Part shown: positions 5,375 to 21,469 of the stretch, in pieces
How positions within the stretch are numbered: position 1 is the first letter of the stretch
Layout of the letters: every line of letters begins with the position of its first letter
NCBI GenBank assembly: GCA_030145325.1
Contig: JAQYVW010000012.1
Coordinates: 1 to 62,114 of the forward strand
DNA length: 62,114 nt
Reading direction: 5' to 3'
From: Desulfurivibrionaceae bacterium
GTDB lineage: Bacteria; Desulfobacterota; Desulfobulbia; Desulfobulbales; UBA5123
Made by a program: the position numbers and the translations under genes
The notes under the pieces: generated by a model
Databases searched by the model: none
What the model was told of the DNA's origin: nothing
The model's input: the letters and a program-made list of their open reading frames with translations, nothing else

Positions 5375-6556
5375 TTAACTTTCGTTGCGGCGCAAAAAGG
5401 TTGGTCGATCAAGCTCTTCCTCATCAAACAGGGTCTGCTGCGGATAACCGCCACGGGGCTTCACACCCTTGCCAGCAGAGGAGGCAGATTGCTCGTCACG
5501 AGCCCCCCCCCTCTCACTAAAGGGTAAGAATGGATTGGAAGCCTCATTTTTCTTAGGTAAAACTTTGACGTTTTCCGGCAAGGTATCGAGCTGCTCGAGG
5601 GAACTGATGCCGGTGGCGATTACGGTCACCCGCAATTCCTCACCAAGGCTATCATCAAAGATAACGCCGAGAATAATATTGGCATCGTCATGTACCTCGT
5701 CATAGATCCGAGAAGTCGCCTCGGTGACTTCAGCCATGGTCAAAGTATCCTCACGGGCTGAGATATTGACCAACACCCCCTTGGCACCATCGATACTGAT
5801 ATCCTGCAAGAGCGGGCTGGCAATGGCCATATCCACCGCCTCGGTGGCACGGTTATCACCAATACCGTTACCGGCGCCCATCAAAGCCGGCCCCATCTGA
5901 TTCATAACCGTGCGCACATCAGCAAAGTCGGGATTGATATAACCGGGGAGGTTGATCAGATCAGTAATCCCTTTCACAGCTTGGACAAGAACCTCATCAA
6001 CCATTTTCATCCCGTCAATAAAGCGAGCGCCTTTTTGCGAGAGAGAAAGGAGGCGATCATTGGGGATGGTGATAATGGTATCAACTTCCTTGCGCAACTC
6101 TTCCCAGCCAGCATCAGCGTTGCGCATCCGGCTTCGCCCCTCAAAGACAAAGGGCTTGGTGGTTACCGCCACCGTCAAAGCACCGAGCTCCCTAGCAACC
6201 CTAGCCACCACCGGCGCAGCGCCGGTACCGGTTCCACCACCCATCCCAGCAGTGACAAAAACCATATCACTATCTTTCAAGAGACTCTTGATTTCCTCAA
6301 TACTTTCCTCAGCAGACTCACGACCCTTCTCGGGATTCGCGCCAGCGCCAAGACCCTTGGTAACCGCTGGGCCGATCTGAAGCTTAACATCCGCTTTCGA
6401 ATCCTCAAGGGCTTGACAATCGGTATTGGCGGCAATAAACTCCACCCCCTGCATCTTGCTCTCAACCATGGTGTTGACGGCATTACCGCCACCGCCGCCC
6501 ACCCCAATCACCTTGATCTTCGCTCTTGACTCTGATTCCGCCAACTTGAATGACAT
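5375..6556 (-). CDS. ftsZ: Cell division protein FtsZ
   Basis: FtsZ is the tubulin-like GTPase that forms the division ring at midcell. The 393-residue protein is of normal length. It shows the N-terminal nucleotide pocket (VIGVGGGGGNAVN), the tubulin signature GGGTGTGAAP near residue 108, and the T7 loop NPDFADV that completes the active site of the next subunit. A variable linker follows, then the conserved C-terminal peptide PTFLRR that binds FtsA. The linker codons at 5503-5511 form a run of nine G on the coding strand, so slippage there would remove the FtsA-binding tail. It is the last gene of the dcw cluster, 64 bp after ftsA. Confidence 0.97.
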   Translation of the reverse strand: MSFKLAESESRAKIKVIGVGGGGGNAVNTMVESKMQGVEFIAANTDCQALEDSKADVKLQIGPAVTKGLGAGANPEKGRESAEESIEEIKSLLKDSDMVFVTAGMGGGTGTGAAPVVARVARELGALTVAVTTKPFVFEGRSRMRNADAGWEELRKEVDTIITIPNDRLLSLSQKGARFIDGMKMVDEVLVQAVKGITDLINLPGYINPDFADVRTVMNQMGPALMGAGNGIGDNRATEAVDMAIASPLLQDISIDGAKGVLVNISAREDTLTMAEVTEATSRIYDEVHDDANIILGVIFDDSLGEELRVTVIATGISSLEQLDTLPENVKVLPKKNEASNPFLPFSERGGARDEQSASSAGKGVKPRGGYPQQTLFDEEELDRPTFLRRNES

Positions 6557-6620: not shown

Positions 6621-7856
6621 CTATATAATACTTTTAAACCAATTTCTCATCCGATTAGACACCCGCCCCATCATCGAACCTTCTCGCATCCGAAAACGAC
6701 GGCCGGGCTCATTTCGCATCCCGAAGATCACCAACCCTACCCCGGTGGCGCATTGCGGGCTATTAACCAAATCCACCACCCCGCCCACATGCTGCGGATA
6801 GCCGATTCGAACAGGCAGATCAAAAATCTGCTCAGTAATATCCAACATATCCTCCAATAAAGAACTGCCACCGGTAAGAACGATGCCGGCATTAACCAGT
6901 TCCTTAAAATTTGAATCGATCATCTCCTGATTGATCATGGTCATCATTTCCTCGACCCTGGGCTCCAGAATCTCGCCCATCACCTTGCGGGAGAGCTTCC
7001 GAGTCCGACGCCCACCCACGCTGGGCACCTCGATGGTCTGATCCTTGTCGATCATCGAGGCCAGAGCACAGCCATACTCTTCCTTAAGTCGCTGCGCTTC
7101 ATTAAGCGGCGTCCGCAGACCGATGGAAAGATCATTGGTCAGATTATGACCACCCAAACCAAGAACAAAGGTATGACGAATGCAACCGTCGGAAAAGATA
7201 GCGAGATCAGAAGTACCGCCACCGATATCGATCAGCGCCACCCCTAACTCAAGTTCTTCTAAAGTCAACACCGCCTCGGCGGAAGCGATGGGTTCCAACA
7301 CCACATCACTAACTTCAAGCCCAGCCCGGTTACAGCACTTGACGATATTATGCACCGAGGTAGCGCCGCCAGTGACGATATGCACGTCGGCCTCAAGACG
7401 CACCCCAGTCATGCCGATGGGATCTTGAATACCGGTCTGATCATCAACGATAAATTCCTGCGGCAACACATGCAACACTTCCTGATCCGGCGGAATAGGC
7501 ACTGCCCGCGCCGCATCCACCACTCGATCGATATCATCCTGGCGAATCTCTTGGTGCTTGATGGCAATGAGCCCGTGGCTGTTAAACCCTTTGATGTGAC
7601 TACCAGCAATCCCTACATAAACCGAGGATATCTCACAACCAGCCATCATCCCCGCTTCATCCACCGCACTGCGGATGGAGTTCACCGTACTTTCGATATT
7701 TACCACCACCCCACGGCGAAGACCGATGGAGGGATGGGTGCCGACACCGATAATGTCCACCTTGTCGCCATGAACCTCGCCCACCACCGCGCAAATCTTG
7801 GTGGTGCCGATATCCAGCCCGACAATCAAGTCGCCTCTTTCTTCATGTGCCATCAT
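6621..7856 (-). CDS. ftsA: Cell division protein FtsA
   Basis: FtsA is the actin-like protein that tethers FtsZ filaments to the inner membrane. The 411-residue product has the actin-fold phosphate motifs DIGTTKICAV near residue 15, DIGGGTSDLAIF near 210 and GIVLTGGSSLL near 340. It ends in an amphipathic membrane-targeting helix (SNRMRNWFKSII). A GTG at 7862 is also in frame but overlaps the AAGG ribosome site, so the ATG at 7856 (or the adjacent one at 7853) is preferred. It lies between ftsQ and ftsZ, the standard order. Confidence 0.96.
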   Translation of the reverse strand: MMAHEERGDLIVGLDIGTTKICAVVGEVHGDKVDIIGVGTHPSIGLRRGVVVNIESTVNSIRSAVDEAGMMAGCEISSVYVGIAGSHIKGFNSHGLIAIKHQEIRQDDIDRVVDAARAVPIPPDQEVLHVLPQEFIVDDQTGIQDPIGMTGVRLEADVHIVTGGATSVHNIVKCCNRAGLEVSDVVLEPIASAEAVLTLEELELGVALIDIGGGTSDLAIFSDGCIRHTFVLGLGGHNLTNDLSIGLRTPLNEAQRLKEEYGCALASMIDKDQTIEVPSVGGRRTRKLSRKVMGEILEPRVEEMMTMINQEMIDSNFKELVNAGIVLTGGSSLLEDMLDITEQIFDLPVRIGYPQHVGGVVDLVNSPQCATGVGLVIFGMRNEPGRRFRMREGSMMGRVSNRMRNWFKSII

Positions 7857-7927
7857 TCTCACCTTGGATCAATGGTCGGACGTCTCCGAACTTCAATATC
7901 CACCACAACTTTTACGATTCACACCTT

Positions 7928-8740
7928 TCAACTGGTAACCGTTGAAACAACCAGTACTTTGTCTTCTCGATAGTCCATCATAACTGATGCCGTGGTGGCA
8001 AATTTCTTATGGCTGTACAACCAATGCAGCACCCTGGCCAAGCGATAGTATTTTGTTTTCAGCCGCTCCCGGCCCAGATAGATCGGAAAAGGCCGGTCAG
8101 CAAGCAATAGAATCAACCCACCATCAGCGGCCACCTGCAACTCCGAAATATTCTGGCGCGGCAAAACTGGATTGCCACCCCCGGCATAACCCACAAATCT
8201 TAAGGCGGCAAGCATCGCCCGATGGCTTTCCGAACCCGGTTCACCAATTTCTGCTAGGCCGCTGATCACCGGAAAATCAATATCTTCCGGCGGCAAGGCC
8301 GGGGCAAAAACCACCCCTTTTCGATCCACAAAATGCAACCCGGAGGAGAGGTTAACCATTGCCACAGGTTTCCGTTCTGTGATCTTCATCTCAAGCTGAT
8401 TGGGCCAATGCCGCTCAATTACCGCCTTGGCTACCCAGGCGTCAGCCTCGATCCGCCCTCGGGCCTCATCGGCGCCAAGGGTCAACAGATTGGCGTGAAT
8501 ATCAACGCCGCTCAATTCCAACACCTTGCTCTTACTAAGGCGACGACAGCCGTCTATACTGATATCGGTTATCTGAAAAAAATCAGAGCGAAGCATCCCC
8601 TGATAAGCAAAAAAACCAACCACCCCGACTCCCAGGCAAACCCCACACAAAATCAAGCCGACTAAGACCACCACGTTGCGATGCTCACCACCGCTCTGTG
8701 AACGATTTTGTCCAACTGGCGCTGTCCGTATTTTTTTCAT
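7928..8740 (-). CDS. ftsQ: Cell division protein FtsQ
   Basis: FtsQ is a bitopic inner-membrane protein that links early and late division proteins through its periplasmic domains. The 270-residue product has a basic cytoplasmic tail and one membrane segment (about residues 24-48). A POTRA domain follows (FFQITDISIDGCRRLSKSKV) and then the FtsQ beta domain. Length and position between murB and ftsA are typical. Its natural periplasmic partners include the FtsW-FtsI complex, whose components are unusual here. Confidence 0.92.
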   Translation of the reverse strand: MKKIRTAPVGQNRSQSGGEHRNVVVLVGLILCGVCLGVGVVGFFAYQGMLRSDFFQITDISIDGCRRLSKSKVLELSGVDIHANLLTLGADEARGRIEADAWVAKAVIERHWPNQLEMKITERKPVAMVNLSSGLHFVDRKGVVFAPALPPEDIDFPVISGLAEIGEPGSESHRAMLAALRFVGYAGGGNPVLPRQNISELQVAADGGLILLLADRPFPIYLGRERLKTKYYRLARVLHWLYSHKKFATTASVMMDYREDKVLVVSTVTS

Positions 8741-11164: not shown

Positions 11165-12307
11165 TTATCCGTTTACCGAGGCCAGAGAGACCAATTCATC
11201 AACGATGCTTTCAGTTGCCTTGGGCAACGATAATTTCCGGGCCATCATGCCCATGCGGGTCCGTTCTTGTAAATTTCCCAACAACCCAACCAGCTCTTTT
11301 GCCAACAAGGCTCCATCAAGCTCACTTTCCCTACACAAGATGGCCCCGCCGGCATCAACCAGATAACGAGCGTTACCTTCCTGATGATCATCGGCGGCAA
11401 AGGGATAAGGAATCAAGATTGACGGCTGCCCATATACCGCCATCTCAGCCAGAGATGTCGCACCAGCACGGGAGACCACTAGCCCCGCCGCCCCGTAAAG
11501 CAACGCCATCTCATCAAAGAAAGCTGCAACTCGCGCCTTTACCCCCAAGGCCTGATACCGCTCCCGAACCCACTGTTCATCACTGGGCCCGGTTTGGTGG
11601 ATAACCTGGAAATCCTCGGGTAATTCACCCGCCGCGCGCTCAACCGCCTCAACCACCAAAGCATTAACTCGGTGGGCGCCCTGACTGCCTCCCAAAACCA
11701 ACAAGGTATTACTCAACTCCTCGCTGGAGGTAGTTTCGTTAGCCTTTGCCAACAACTCGCGTCGAACCGGATTGCCACTCAACCGACACTTCCGGGCCGG
11801 GAAATATTTCTCACTACCCGGAATGGACAGCAACACCCGCTTAACCACCCGTCCCAAAATCCGATTGGCCAACCCCGGCACCGAGTTTTGCTCGTGAATG
11901 GCGGTGGGCACCCCCAACAATCTCGCAGCCAACACCACCGGGCCGGTAACATAGCCACCAACCCCGAAGACTACCCCCGGCCTAAACTTTATGATCAGCC
12001 GCATGGCGGCGAAAAGACTGAACGGCACCTGCAGTAAACCGCCAAGTTTAGCAAACAGGCTTTTCCCCTTCAACCCTCGCGAACGAATCGATACCACCTT
12101 GAAACGGCGATTAGCCAAAGCCTTTTGATCAATTAAGCGCTCAGTACCAACAAACAAAACCTCACTGCCGGGAAATCGATCCAACACCGCTTCGGCCACA
12201 GCAATTCCGGGGAACAGATGCCCACCGGTGCCACCGCCGGTGACCATCACCCGGTAAAAGTTTTGTGCCTGTAAAGAGCCGGTTGCCAAATAACAATCCT
12301 CTTTCAA
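11165..12307 (-). CDS. murG: Undecaprenyldiphospho-muramoylpentapeptide N-acetylglucosaminyltransferase MurG
   Basis: MurG transfers GlcNAc to lipid I to form lipid II at the inner face of the membrane. The glycine-rich donor loop [11 protein letters not shown], the acceptor loop GVGGYVTGP, the motif [11 protein letters not shown] and the nucleotide-sugar loop LGGSQGAH are all present. The start is uncertain. A TTG at 12307 overlaps the stop of the small zinc-ribbon gene. A TTG at 12289 follows AGAGGA at ideal spacing, and a GTG at 12250 would give the usual compact N-terminus. In most genomes ftsW sits immediately upstream; here it does not. Confidence 0.95.
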
Positions 12308-12477
12308 TCAATTGCTGGCTGAAAATCAGCCCCAAAAGCCATAACCTTTTGCATGGCTTTCCGATAACACTCCGGGCAATATCCATGGGAGAGCTTAACC
12401 AGTCTCCGACACTTACCACCCTCAACCCAACCGCTCTTACTCTTCACCCGTTGACATACGCAGCACACTTTTTCCAT
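12304..12477 (-). CDS. 57-residue zinc-ribbon-like protein in the ftsW slot
   Basis: A 57-codon gene lies between murD and murG. It encodes a small basic protein with cysteines at residues 5, 6, 8, 23, 34 and 37. The pairs C-C-V-C and H-G-Y-C-P-E-C look like a zinc ribbon. The SHGYCPEC block resembles the SHG-[IY]-CP-[DE]-C tail found next to some signalling proteins in Proteobacteria; that likeness is from memory. The ATG at 12477 is preceded directly by nine G residues (AAGGGGGGGGG), which act as the ribosome site. The stop overlaps the most upstream possible murG start. Function is unknown. Its location where ftsW is expected makes it noteworthy. Confidence 0.75.
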   Translation of the reverse strand: MEKVCCVCQRVKSKSGWVEGGKCRRLVKLSHGYCPECYRKAMQKVMAFGADFQPAID

Positions 12478-12486
12478 CCCCCCCCC
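12478..12486 (-). repeat. G9 homopolymer forming the ribosome-binding site of the zinc-ribbon gene
   Basis: Nine consecutive G (coding strand) touch the ATG at 12477. Changes in tract length by slippage would alter spacing between the AAGG core and the start codon and could tune translation of this gene and, by coupling, of murG. Confidence 0.6.
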
Positions 12487-12520
12487 TTACCGACCGGTGG
12501 CCGGATACGTCGACACGTCG

Positions 12521-16680: not shown

Positions 16681-18294
16681 TCAGTGATAAATAACCGCCA
16701 GGCTGTTCCGGGCCTCAACTCGATCATCGAAAAATTTCTTACCAGCGCGATCAAGCTGGTAGCACTCATGCCCCTTGCCACTGACCAACACCACATCTCC
16801 AGCGGCGGCGCCTTGCACGCCAACCCGAATGGCTTCCCGCCGCGAAACAATGATGTCATAGCCACGCAACCGACGGTGGCTAAGCAAAGCCTCGCCACGC
16901 ATCCTAGCCACTCCTTGCAAACCGGCTTCAATCTCAGTCAAAATCTCTTCCGGCGCCTCACTGCGAGGATTATCCGAAGTGACCAACACCACGTCAGCCA
17001 AACGCCCGGCAACCTCGCCCATCAAAGGCCGCTTGCCACGATCACGGTCACCGCCGCAACCAAAGATTACGATCAATCGGGCCGGGGTCAAAGCACGCAG
17101 GGTAGACAAAACATTTTCCAGGGCATCGGGAGTATGGGCGTAATCAACAAAAACTGTCGGGCTAGCTCCATCCACCCTGCTTACCCGCTCAAGCCGCCCC
17201 GGCACGCCCCTAAACTGCGCCAGCCCGGAAGCCATCTTGTCAACATCAAGGCCAAGGACTGTTCCCACTCCCAAACAGCCAAGAATATTCTTCAGGTTGT
17301 AACCGCCAACCATCTGCGTCTTTAACTGCATGGAACCGCCGGGCAAGGTTATTTCCGCCTCAATGCCACCCAGTCCACCACTATGCGAAACCGGAAAAAT
17401 ATCGTTATCCGCACCCAACCCGCAGGTGACAATCTTACCCTTTGCCGCTCGCCAAGAATGAGTATCGGCAAGGTTCCGGGCCAAACGACGCCCCCAGTAA
17501 CCCTCACCTGTCACCTCGCAATCATCTTTAGCGCCATCCTGTAAGATCACTGCCACCGCCTCTTTTTTTAGATGCGCCTGAAACAACAACTGCTTGGCCT
17601 TGAAATAACTTTCCATATCGCCATGAAAATCAAGATGATCCCGACTGAGATTGGTAAACAGGGCCACATCGAAGAATACCCCCTGCAATCTCTTTTGCGC
17701 CAGAGCATGGGACGACACCTCCATCACCACATGACTAACCTGCTCCTCGGCCATCTCCCACAGCAGTTTTTGCAGCTGCACCGGTTCCGGGGTAGTAAAC
17801 GGAGCCGCAATCTCCCTACCGGCAAAACGATAATTAACCGTCCCAATCACCCCGGGTCGAGCGCCTGCCGCCACCAGCACCTCCTCCAGCAGATAAGAGG
17901 TGGTGGTTTTGCCGTTGGTGCCGGTAATGGCGATCATCTGCAGGCGGCGGACGGGATGATCATAAAACGCCGCCGCCACTTCTCCCAGCGCCAGCCGGGT
18001 ATCTGCAACCATCACCCGCACTACGGGACTAGAACCTTGGACAAACTCAGTCAACCCCTGTTCAACAAGAACGGCAGCACAACCCTTGGCTTCTGCCTGC
18101 GCCACAAATTGATGTCCATCAACCCGCAGACCCGAAATGGCCACAAACAAAACTCCAGGGCCAGCCTTACGAGAATCAGCGGTGATGGCGGTTATAGTCA
18201 CGCCCTGAAGATCACCGTCAACCTGTACATCCAACCCCTTAAGCAACTCCGCAAGATCCTTGGCCCGGCCATTCGCACCCACAGTCACGCTCAC
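16681..18294 (-). CDS. murE: UDP-MurNAc-L-Ala-D-Glu--meso-diaminopimelate ligase MurE
   Basis: MurE adds the third residue of the stem peptide. The P-loop ITGTNGKTTTSYL near residue 122 and the central NLSRDHLDFHG motif are present. The DNPR motif (SDNPRSE) recognises meso-diaminopimelate rather than lysine, so the wall is meso-DAP type. The 537-residue protein is somewhat long because of an insertion around residues 255-300. The start is GTG at 18294 and overlaps the ftsI stop by four bases (GTGA). Confidence 0.96.
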   Translation of the reverse strand: MSVTVGANGRAKDLAELLKGLDVQVDGDLQGVTITAITADSRKAGPGVLFVAISGLRVDGHQFVAQAEAKGCAAVLVEQGLTEFVQGSSPVVRVMVADTRLALGEVAAAFYDHPVRRLQMIAITGTNGKTTTSYLLEEVLVAAGARPGVIGTVNYRFAGREIAAPFTTPEPVQLQKLLWEMAEEQVSHVVMEVSSHALAQKRLQGVFFDVALFTNLSRDHLDFHGDMESYFKAKQLLFQAHLKKEAVAVILQDGAKDDCEVTGEGYWGRRLARNLADTHSWRAAKGKIVTCGLGADNDIFPVSHSGGLGGIEAEITLPGGSMQLKTQMVGGYNLKNILGCLGVGTVLGLDVDKMASGLAQFRGVPGRLERVSRVDGASPTVFVDYAHTPDALENVLSTLRALTPARLIVIFGCGGDRDRGKRPLMGEVAGRLADVVLVTSDNPRSEAPEEILTEIEAGLQGVARMRGEALLSHRRLRGYDIIVSRREAIRVGVQGAAAGDVVLVSGKGHECYQLDRAGKKFFDDRVEARNSLAVIYH

Positions 18295-20216
18295 TGCTCC
18301 AACTGCAAGCTAAGGACCACTTCCTGCGCCCCTTTAAGAGAAGCGCCGAGCACCGGCTGCTGAGCCACCACCCGGCCACTGCCCTGGACCCTTACGGGCA
18401 AGCCGTACGCTTGCAAAACCTGTAAGGCCTTGCGAAGGCTGAGCCCGGTCACCGTGGGCATTACCTCGACCTTACGACTTCTCACTGATCTCTGTTGCCG
18501 ATCTGGTTGCTTCTGGATCTTTAACCAAGCCTGGTAAAAAGCTTCTTCATTGGCCTGCGGCAACGTCTGCGGGCGAATACTCCCCCCCCGGCGTAACGCC
18601 ACCGCCTTCCGCAATATTTCCCGACCCAAACCCGCCAAAGGAGAAGAAACCTTGGCATCAAATCTGCTGCCACTCAAGGCCGCCACCACAACCAACTTCG
18701 GCCCGTTACCGGCCGACATGCCAAGCATGGTGGCATAATATCTCTCAGCATTACGACTTGTCTCCGCCGCAACCACTGCGGGCGACGCCATCTCCACCAC
18801 CCCAGCAAGCTCTTTACCCTGAACCGCAGCACGACTTTCAACCAGTTGTTCAGGAAGGCGAGATTCCACTATCAACTCCCGCCCATGGCCGCTTCCCCCA
18901 CCCAACGAGTCCAGCAGCGCCCCACATAATCCGGGACGAAAATTTGCGGCCCCATCCTTGCTTACCGCCGCCCCCGACCACTCACCACCCTCCCAGCGAA
19001 TTCGGCTCAGGAGACGCGGCCTCACCAACACCCCGCCATTCACGGTTCGGGCAAAGGCCGTCAGTAAATCAATGGCGGTGGTTGATCCCGTCTGCTCTTC
19101 ACCAGCAAACCATTGCTCATTCACCCCACCCTGCTCCACGGGCAGATCAATTCCTGTTCCAGGATGTAGCGCCAGCCGCTCAACAAAGCTTGCATCCCCT
19201 GCATCTCCGCTCACATCCTTACCTAAACGGGCCAGATTACGGCTGACAAAAACACCCTCAGAATCCTGTTGCCATTGCGCCGCACTCTCATCGACGCCAA
19301 TTGCCGGGAAACCACCCCGCAACTCATAAGCTGCCGCACACCTGAACAACCGGCCGATCCCGCCTGGGAAAACCGGGTCGACTACGGCCCGGTTACGGCG
19401 ATCCGTAGCAGTAAAATCCCAAAAACTATTGGGATCATAGGTGGGCAGGCTGACCATGGCTACAACCGCACCGGTTTTGGCATCCATCACCGCAGCCACC
19501 CCGGAGGCGGCATTGGCCTTTTGCATAACCCGGCCAAGTCTCTTCTCCAACAGGGATTGGAGTCTTAGGTCCAGACTTAAAATCAAATCCGCGCCGCGTT
19601 CTTCAACACTGTCTGGCGAAGAAAGGCCAACCTTGGCAAGATCAGCATCCTTGCCCACTATTCCCCGCAAAACGTTATCGTATTGAAACTCTATCCCGGC
19701 CAACCCCTGGTCGTCCTTGACAAAGCCAAGCACCGAGGCAGCAACCTGCTTATGGGGATAGAATCGATGCATTTCGTCAACCCCATAAACACCCGGAATA
19801 CCGAGCCCAAGGATTTTTTCAGCTTGTAGGGCCGGTAACTGCCGACCAAGCCAGATAAAACTTCGCTCTGCCTTCAGCAAGGATCGCAACTCATCCTTAT
19901 CAACCTCCAGCACGGTGGCGATATCTTTGACCGCCGCATCGATATCCACCAGTTCTAAAGGCCTGGCATATATCGAGGTAAGCCGGAAACTAACCGCCAG
20001 TTCCCGGTAATTATGATCATAAATATTCTTGCGACTGACCACCCTGCCCAGCGCGGGCACCGCTTTAACACCCGCCCCACCCTCTTCGGTGGCAGCTCGA
20101 TCATCAAAAGAACCCAGGCAGGCAAAAACCAACAACGTCAACAGGACCGAAAGGGCCGCCGCCCCGCCGATGATCAACCAGCCCCGCCTGACAATTTTTT
20201 GTCGATCTCTCCTCAT
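18291..20216 (-). CDS. ftsI: FtsI-type class B penicillin-binding protein lacking canonical catalytic motifs
   Basis: Position after ftsL and before murE, a membrane helix (residues 11-35), a PBP dimerisation region (about 55-205) and a C-terminal PASTA domain (about 583-641) identify this 641-residue protein as FtsI. FtsI normally crosslinks septal peptidoglycan. In the transpeptidase domain the expected EPGSTFKP box reads FPGGIGRLF at residues 283-291, so the nucleophile serine is glycine and the lysine is arginine. The frame is continuous, with NRAVVDP before and AAAYELRGG after the box. An SxN-like S325-R-N327 is present. No KTG box can be found near residues 465-485, where ELAGVVEMASPAVV stands. 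It looks like a non-catalytic, still structured homologue. A G8 run sits at 18582-18589. Confidence 0.88.
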   Translation of the reverse strand: MRRDRQKIVRRGWLIIGGAAALSVLLTLLVFACLGSFDDRAATEEGGAGVKAVPALGRVVSRKNIYDHNYRELAVSFRLTSIYARPLELVDIDAAVKDIATVLEVDKDELRSLLKAERSFIWLGRQLPALQAEKILGLGIPGVYGVDEMHRFYPHKQVAASVLGFVKDDQGLAGIEFQYDNVLRGIVGKDADLAKVGLSSPDSVEERGADLILSLDLRLQSLLEKRLGRVMQKANAASGVAAVMDAKTGAVVAMVSLPTYDPNSFWDFTATDRRNRAVVDPVFPGGIGRLFRCAAAYELRGGFPAIGVDESAAQWQQDSEGVFVSRNLARLGKDVSGDAGDASFVERLALHPGTGIDLPVEQGGVNEQWFAGEEQTGSTTAIDLLTAFARTVNGGVLVRPRLLSRIRWEGGEWSGAAVSKDGAANFRPGLCGALLDSLGGGSGHGRELIVESRLPEQLVESRAAVQGKELAGVVEMASPAVVAAETSRNAERYYATMLGMSAGNGPKLVVVAALSGSRFDAKVSSPLAGLGREILRKAVALRRGGSIRPQTLPQANEEAFYQAWLKIQKQPDRQQRSVRSRKVEVMPTVTGLSLRKALQVLQAYGLPVRVQGSGRVVAQQPVLGASLKGAQEVVLSLQLEQ

Positions 20217-20228
20217 CCATAAAGCCTG

Positions 20229-20579
20229 CTAAGGTCGCCGTACTTGCCGAGAGGTGGGCGGATACAATCCCAAGGTCACCGCCGCCGCTTCTATCTGTTT
20301 CCGGCTTCGCAAGGTGTCCCGCTTTGCAAGAAGATTTTTGCTCTGCACCGTTAACTCCTGCCGCACCTGGTGAACGCTGCCCAACTCATCAAGACCGCTA
20401 TCTATTTGCCAACCCAACCACAGACTTGCCGCCACCCCTACCACCACCGCAAAGGAAGCTAGCACCCCAACCGCCTTCCACAACAAGCCGCTATCGGCCC
20501 CCCCGGTGACCCGACGATGACGACAAACCTTTTGCGAACGACCTACCGTGGAATAACGACGTGAATAATCCTGAATCAT
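20229..20579 (-). CDS. ftsL: Cell division protein FtsL-like
   Basis: This is a 116-residue bitopic membrane protein with a basic cytoplasmic N-terminus, one membrane segment (about 32-55) and a short periplasmic coiled coil ending in LGLYPPTSRQV. The last stretch matches the pattern of FtsL tails. Sequence conservation in FtsL is low, so the call rests mainly on topology and on position between rsmH and ftsI. FtsL normally forms a complex with FtsB and FtsQ that activates FtsW-FtsI. Its ATG overlaps the rsmH stop by four bases (ATGA). Confidence 0.82.
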   Translation of the reverse strand: MIQDYSRRYSTVGRSQKVCRHRRVTGGADSGLLWKAVGVLASFAVVVGVAASLWLGWQIDSGLDELGSVHQVRQELTVQSKNLLAKRDTLRSRKQIEAAAVTLGLYPPTSRQVRRP

Positions 20580-21469
20580 TGCTCACCCCTCACCATCTCG
20601 GCAACCCGCAGCTTAGCGCTCCGTGCGCGCGGATTGACCGCCAACTCATCCACCCCGGCGATTATCGGTTTCCGAGTCAAGACCTGTAATTTCGGATTAT
20701 CAGCAAAAGCCCTTTTGACCAGGCGATCTTCAAGAGAATGAAAAGAGATAACGCAGAAACGGCCCCCCGGGGCCAAGAGATCAGCCCCGTCGGTGAGGAT
20801 TTGGGCAAGATTTTCAAGCTCCCGGTTAACCGCAATCCGCAAAGCCTGAAAAACCTTGGTGGCAACATGTATTTTCTTGGGATGAAAACGCTTGGGAACC
20901 GCCCATTCCACCACCTTTACCAACTGCGCGGTGGTGACAAACGGTTCCTTGCGCCTGGCCTCAACAATACTAGCGGCGATGGGCCGGGCCTGCCGTTCTT
21001 CACCGTAATAATAAAAAATATCGGCCAACTCATCCTGGTCAGCGCGGTTCAATAAATCCGCCGCCGTCCTTTCGCCTCGATCATCCATGCGCATATCCAA
21101 CGGTTCACTGCCTTTAAAAGTGAAACCACGGCCGCTCTCGTCCAGCTGCAACGAGGAAAGGCCCAGATCAAGAAGAAGGCCGTTCACTTTGTCAATCCCA
21201 AGTTCCGCCAGCACATCTTTCACCGCCGCAAAATTTTGTCGAACAAAATGTACCCGGTCACCGAAACCAGCTAACCGTTCCTGAGCAATGGCCATTGCGG
21301 CTGCATCCCAATCAAAGGCCAGCAGCCTACCATGGGGAGCAGAAGCCTCAAGAATCTTTGCCGAATGTCCCCCCAAGCCAAGATTCCCATCAACGTAGAT
21401 GCCGCCGTCCCGTGGTGCCAACCACTCCATGGTCTCTGCCAAAAGAACTGATTGATGTAGCTCTTCCAT
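20576..21469 (-). CDS. rsmH: 16S rRNA (cytosine(1402)-N(4))-methyltransferase RsmH
   Basis: RsmH (MraW) methylates N4 of C1402 in 16S rRNA using S-adenosylmethionine. The start HQSVLLAETMEWL, the SAM-binding glycine loop DGNLGLGGHS, the LLLDLGLSSLQLD and GFTFKGSEPLDMRMD motifs, and the C-terminal CVISFHSLEDRLVK motif are all typical. Length (297 aa) is normal. It begins 2 bp after mraZ ends and overlaps ftsL. Confidence 0.97.
   Translation of the reverse strand: MEELHQSVLLAETMEWLAPRDGGIYVDGNLGLGGHSAKILEASAPHGRLLAFDWDAAAMAIAQERLAGFGDRVHFVRQNFAAVKDVLAELGIDKVNGLLLDLGLSSLQLDESGRGFTFKGSEPLDMRMDDRGERTAADLLNRADQDELADIFYYYGEERQARPIAASIVEARRKEPFVTTAQLVKVVEWAVPKRFHPKKIHVATKVFQALRIAVNRELENLAQILTDGADLLAPGGRFCVISFHSLEDRLVKRAFADNPKLQVLTRKPIIAGVDELAVNPRARSAKLRVAEMVRGEQ

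Follow-up and report, generated by a model that had tools for sequence, protein, structure and literature searches.

Loss of the FtsI catalytic motifs across the Desulfobulbales, in genomes where no FtsW is detected

The FtsW-FtsI pair is regarded as near-universal for septal wall synthesis, and C. difficile is the documented exception. We analysed a stretch of 62,114 nucleotides (the window) from a draft genome of a Desulfurivibrionaceae bacterium in the order Desulfobulbales (168 contigs), whose dcw cluster carries an ftsI gene with a dead-looking transpeptidase active site. The initial annotation of this locus had proposed that the protein is an intact, non-catalytic FtsI scaffold and that septal crosslinking is done by another enzyme. 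Is the loss of the motifs genuine, how widely is it shared, and what might build the septum instead? The proposal is supported by all the evidence given below, with the scaffold role remaining an inference. The missing ftsW had been overlooked; since ftsW is absent as well, polymerisation as well as crosslinking would have been handed over.

The window protein is an orthologue of FtsI/PBP3. It has the dcw position (between ftsL and murE), N-terminal membrane anchor, PBP_dimer pedestal, transpeptidase fold and PASTA domain of the intact FtsIs of the phylum (Table 1), and differs from FtsI/PBP3 in lacking SxxK and KTG, both expected of a functional DD-transpeptidase, and in having no FtsW partner in its genome. 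In the profile search, PF03717 and PASTA were recognised and the PF00905 match was split and weak. An AlphaFold2 model (pLDDT 77.5, pTM 0.73, low confidence at residues 362-376 and 467-489) retains the FtsI fold, matching PBP3 and SpoVD with Z of 33-36 across residues 56-545. The annotation's structural claims all held. The Ser and Lys of SxxK are replaced by G286 and R289 (residues 283-291 read FPGGIGRLF, with GIGR where SxxK is expected). No KTG exists near residues 465-485 by sequence or alignment, the former KTG strand having no K-T/S-G and its region reading RELIVESRLPEQ...AGVVEM. The 641-aa frame is uninterrupted, its anchor, dimerisation region and PASTA domain are kept (open reading frame, Pfam and model), and the gene retains its place and its coupling to murE, whose start it overlaps. 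SxN, on which the annotation had not commented, is the sole motif partly surviving in the window protein, as a poor SRN at residues 325-327, and its N is substituted in most orthologues. Relocation of the motifs within the fold was considered and rejected: stray KTG or SxxK strings occur in some orthologues, off the active-site positions and unconserved, as in the DAKTGAV of the window protein (residues 247-249), which lies in a turn early in the domain.

Table 1. Features of the window and of the genome it comes from (coordinates are window positions unless a locus is given)
Feature	Coordinates	Strand	Evidence or remark
ftsZ	5375..6556	-	PF00091, PF12327
ftsA	6621..7862	-	PF14450, PF02491
ftsQ	7928..8740	-	PF08478, PF03799; divisome partner still present
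murD-murG junction, usual ftsW site	12304..12520	-	no ftsW; only a 57-aa CxxC...CxxC ORF (12304-12477)
murE	16681..18294	-	Mur ligase domains; 4 bp overlap with ftsI
ftsI pseudoenzyme gene	18291..20216	-	uninterrupted 641-aa ORF; Pfam PF03717, PF00905, PASTA
C-terminal PASTA domain, residues 584-641	18294..18467	-	conservation above catalytic FtsI
Former KTG strand and loop, residues 446-477, without KTG	18786..18881	-	residues 467-489 of low model confidence
Degenerate SxN site, S325-R326-N327	19236..19244	-	N mostly E across the order
Former SxxK helix, residues 284-291, PGGIGRLF	19344..19367	-	alignment; Ser to G286, Lys to R289
Pedestal (PBP_dimer) domain, residues 61-189	19650..20036	-	conservation equal to catalytic FtsI
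N-terminal membrane anchor helix, residues 6-34	20115..20201	-	AlphaFold2 helix; hydrophobic sequence
ftsL-like small membrane protein, 116 aa	20229..20579	-	weak PF04999 match, E 0.012; between mraW and ftsI
mraW/rsmH	20576..21469	-	PF01795
Class A PBP of about 1100 aa	L260:349-3690	-	genome of the window, contig C161; also at L261, L262, L264, L265, L270

We then compared the orthologous FtsI frames that could be read from the single order containing the window, the Desulfobulbales (110 frames). PG[ST]xxK at the active-site position and KTG at the catalytic position are each found in 0 of 110, a loss far outside what chance would give, and every frame read is open. In 18 of 18 intact FtsIs of other lineages, the alignment shows the Ser, the Lys, SxN and KTG all in place. 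Most orthologues of the order carry G, L, A or E in place of the Ser, and R, P, S or G in place of the Lys. Two genomes of the same genus have orthologues 60% identical to the window protein; partial FtsI frames from families f2 and f11 (L202-L204) likewise miss the motifs. A sequencing or assembly error could be suspected, the genome of the window being a draft, but it is all but excluded by the agreement of the 110 orthologues, among them those of the single-contig genomes G007, G014, G048, G065, G110, G132 and G143. The motif loss in the window FtsI is therefore genuine. A replacement signature for KTG was also considered: 'ESL' is near-invariant in a 43-row alignment, but its E is present in only about 55% of 107 orthologues, and we do not claim it.

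The remaining parts of the protein have fared very differently from one another. Mean pairwise identity in the dead FtsIs versus the intact ones is 0.37 versus 0.39 for the pedestal, 0.34 versus 0.45 for the N-terminal part of the transpeptidase domain, 0.25 versus 0.60 for the active helix, 0.20 versus 0.46 for the rest of that domain, and 0.44 versus 0.34 for PASTA. The dead and intact sets are of unmatched age, so the contrast between domains counts for more than any single value. Between close ftsI pairs, whole-gene dN/dS is about 0.07-0.28, with the pedestal lowest in most pairs (0.01-0.23); the transpeptidase domain is still partly constrained (about 0.07-0.32). We conclude that the dead FtsI is maintained by purifying selection, the catalytic face excepted. 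The alternative that it is a passive relic, slowly decaying in the dcw operon without a function of its own, can point to the 20% mean identity reached in the transpeptidase domain and to the related lineages f40 and f59, where no FtsI was detected. The open frames, the low dN/dS, a pedestal conserved like that of catalytic FtsI and a PASTA domain conserved even better speak against it, and we consider it unlikely. Continued catalysis with a non-canonical nucleophile, or a role as a sensor that binds stem peptides, is equally unlikely for the transpeptidase domain. In favour of this are the retained fold and the partial order-wide conservation of S325 (56%), E451 (55%) and N393/G395/P400 (93%); against it, none of the residues that once formed the catalytic motifs comes close to invariance in the order. 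A ligand-binding role of the transpeptidase domain is nevertheless not excluded, because some constraint on it remains.

We then investigated the SEDS polymerases and the other class B PBPs. The usual ftsW site in the window is without ftsW, and none was found elsewhere in its genome, so that the cognate SEDS protein of an FtsW-FtsI synthase is missing. A PF01098 search detected a SEDS protein in 141 of the 146 genomes of the order and none in the other 5, and no SEDS polymerase other than RodA in any of the 146. Wherever its position can be compared, the SEDS gene adjoins mrdA; additional PF01098 rows are contig-end fragments or a split gene. The sole SEDS gene of one single-contig Desulfobulbales genome (L221, G014:C1:137697-138757) appears split into two frames, by either a sequencing slip or a real break. 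With PF03717, the genome of the window yielded only the dead FtsI and an intact MrdA beside RodA, and no second, intact FtsI paralogue. Class B PBPs number no more than two in any genome of the order (intact MrdA and dead FtsI), and PF00905 matches above 200 bits no more than one, which is MrdA; SxxK and KTG of MrdA are intact in 15 of the 15 order genomes read.

Part of this was known. The absence of ftsW, zipA and ftsN has been reported for two cable bacteria and two Desulfobulbus species, four members of the Desulfobulbaceae (PMC7873302). In the relevant passages of that inventory FtsI is treated as functional, with neither a lost active site nor an order-wide distribution described. We found no report of a dead FtsI or of an order-wide coupled loss in the open-licence PMC literature searched. 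As a separate observation, FtsL is barely detectable by Pfam here (E 0.012), which may account for published reports of missing ftsL in Desulfobulbaceae.

Two SEDS proteins are present in nearly all genomes from the rest of the phylum, and the outgroups mostly have RodA and FtsW. Exceptions are the neighbouring lineage f28, with a single SEDS beside MrdA and a dead FtsI (L200, L201), and lineages f35, f39, f40 and f59, with a single SEDS beside MrdA and no FtsI detected. In a few other single-SEDS genomes (for example, G159, G160 and G163) it is RodA that is missing, and FtsW is kept near an intact FtsI. One draft genome of 450 contigs (G146) has an intact FtsI and only RodA, probably by an assembly gap; with this exception, intact FtsI co-occurs with FtsW, and a dead or absent FtsI goes without FtsW. 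Six genomes from other lineages of the phylum (G165, G201, G169, G204, G170 and G205) yielded RodA as the only SEDS protein and a single class B PBP, with both FtsW and FtsI undetected; two of these are single-contig genomes of 1.8 Mb. A MrdA-RodA tree places the Desulfobulbales, f28, f40 and f59 in one group (SH-aLRT 99) and requires three changes of the FtsW and FtsI state over the phylum sample. An FtsI tree, from which most of the transpeptidase domain was left out, requires a single change between dead and intact. Both trees were built with a quick method and contain some long branches. The simplest history is one coupled loss in a common ancestor, with the whole ftsI gene lost later in f40 and f59, and independent losses in f35 and f39.

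Which enzymes are left for the septum? We infer that class A PBPs, RodA-MrdA or both take over septal synthesis; L,D-transpeptidases were outside this survey. A GT51 class A PBP is present in all 80 genomes checked, with at least two in every Desulfobulbales genome among them and three in the genome of the window. Class A PBPs without a canonical FtsW/FtsI pair, the arrangement of a C. difficile-type divisome, are thus what this genome has. Most of the order genomes checked have a class A PBP of about 1100 aa with SxxK and KTG intact and a long insertion between them, which was not seen in f28 or among the listed outgroup matches; it is a possible candidate for the septal synthase. Beyond two other class A PBPs, the genome of the window also encodes a divergent 908-aa GT51/transpeptidase protein on contig C3 (L267:1-2724, minus strand; GT51 102 bits).

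Two known systems bear on this question. C. difficile, a partial precedent, has a class A PBP (PBP1) as the synthase at the core of its divisome and divides with no canonical FtsW/FtsI (PMC10693644). Septation by PBP1 is promoted there by the class B PBP3, which acts in a complex and without catalysis (PMC12539705). The two systems share the lack of a canonical FtsW-FtsI pair and the presence of RodA-PBP2 and class A PBPs, and a class B PBP has a catalysis-free role there. They differ in that the C. difficile role was shown with a transpeptidase mutant rather than a naturally dead protein, and in that its dcw SEDS/class B PBP pair persists as SpoVE/SpoVD for sporulation; the Desulfobulbales are diderm, and their dcw FtsI is itself naturally dead. 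In B. subtilis, cells still divide with a catalytically inactive PBP2B as long as PBP3 is present (PMC5656894). The S309A protein is likewise a divisome class B PBP with a structural role and no catalysis, but it is a laboratory mutant for which PBP3 transpeptidates, whereas the loss in the Desulfobulbales is natural and order-wide, with no second division class B PBP.

On balance, and with no biochemical or cell-biological data, we lean towards a single dismantling of the septal FtsW-FtsI synthase, after which FtsI was kept as a divisome adaptor without catalysis; that the protein is inactive, that it acts as an adaptor and which synthase it partners are all inferred. An ancestor of the Desulfobulbales and their near relatives would have lost FtsW while the FtsI active site decayed, and the anchor, pedestal and PASTA domain would have been retained under purifying selection as an adaptor. 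The pseudo-FtsI would probably contact FtsL/FtsQ and recruit or regulate some other synthase of the septum. The likeliest is a class A PBP, which is both polymerase and transpeptidase, possibly together with RodA-MrdA. The C. difficile class A PBP precedent, the non-catalytic role of its PBP3 and B. subtilis PBP2B are the reasons why we favour a class A PBP adaptor, with RodA-MrdA as the main rival. In that possible alternative, RodA-MrdA, the last SEDS-class B PBP pair, builds the septum as well as the side wall, and is docked to the divisome by the pseudo-FtsI. It is consistent with the one SEDS and one catalytic class B PBP per genome and with the intact motifs of every MrdA read in the order. 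Against it, the sole essential SEDS-class B PBP pair of C. difficile, RodA-PBP2, elongates, and a class A PBP divides the cell (PMC10693644).

Two points weigh on the adaptor reading itself. Lineages f35, f39, f40 and f59 have no detectable FtsI, and an adaptor is not strictly needed, because vegetative cells of C. difficile, divided by a class A PBP, can do without FtsQLB. A bolder version of the class A PBP adaptor reading, which could as readily prove wrong as right, is that a whole diderm order has an FtsW-independent divisome in which FtsI is an obligate non-catalytic adaptor driving a class A PBP, perhaps the one of about 1100 aa, in place of the septal SEDS-class B PBP pair that is supposed to be universal.

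If FtsI is dead and FtsW gone, this sulfur-cycling order must build its daughter-cell wall with other enzymes, and FtsI-directed beta-lactams are predicted not to block division in these bacteria through FtsI. In a diderm order that includes the family of the cable bacteria, the structural role of FtsI would be naturally split from its catalytic role. Such a natural separation-of-function FtsI would make the long-standing question of the non-catalytic roles of FtsI directly testable.
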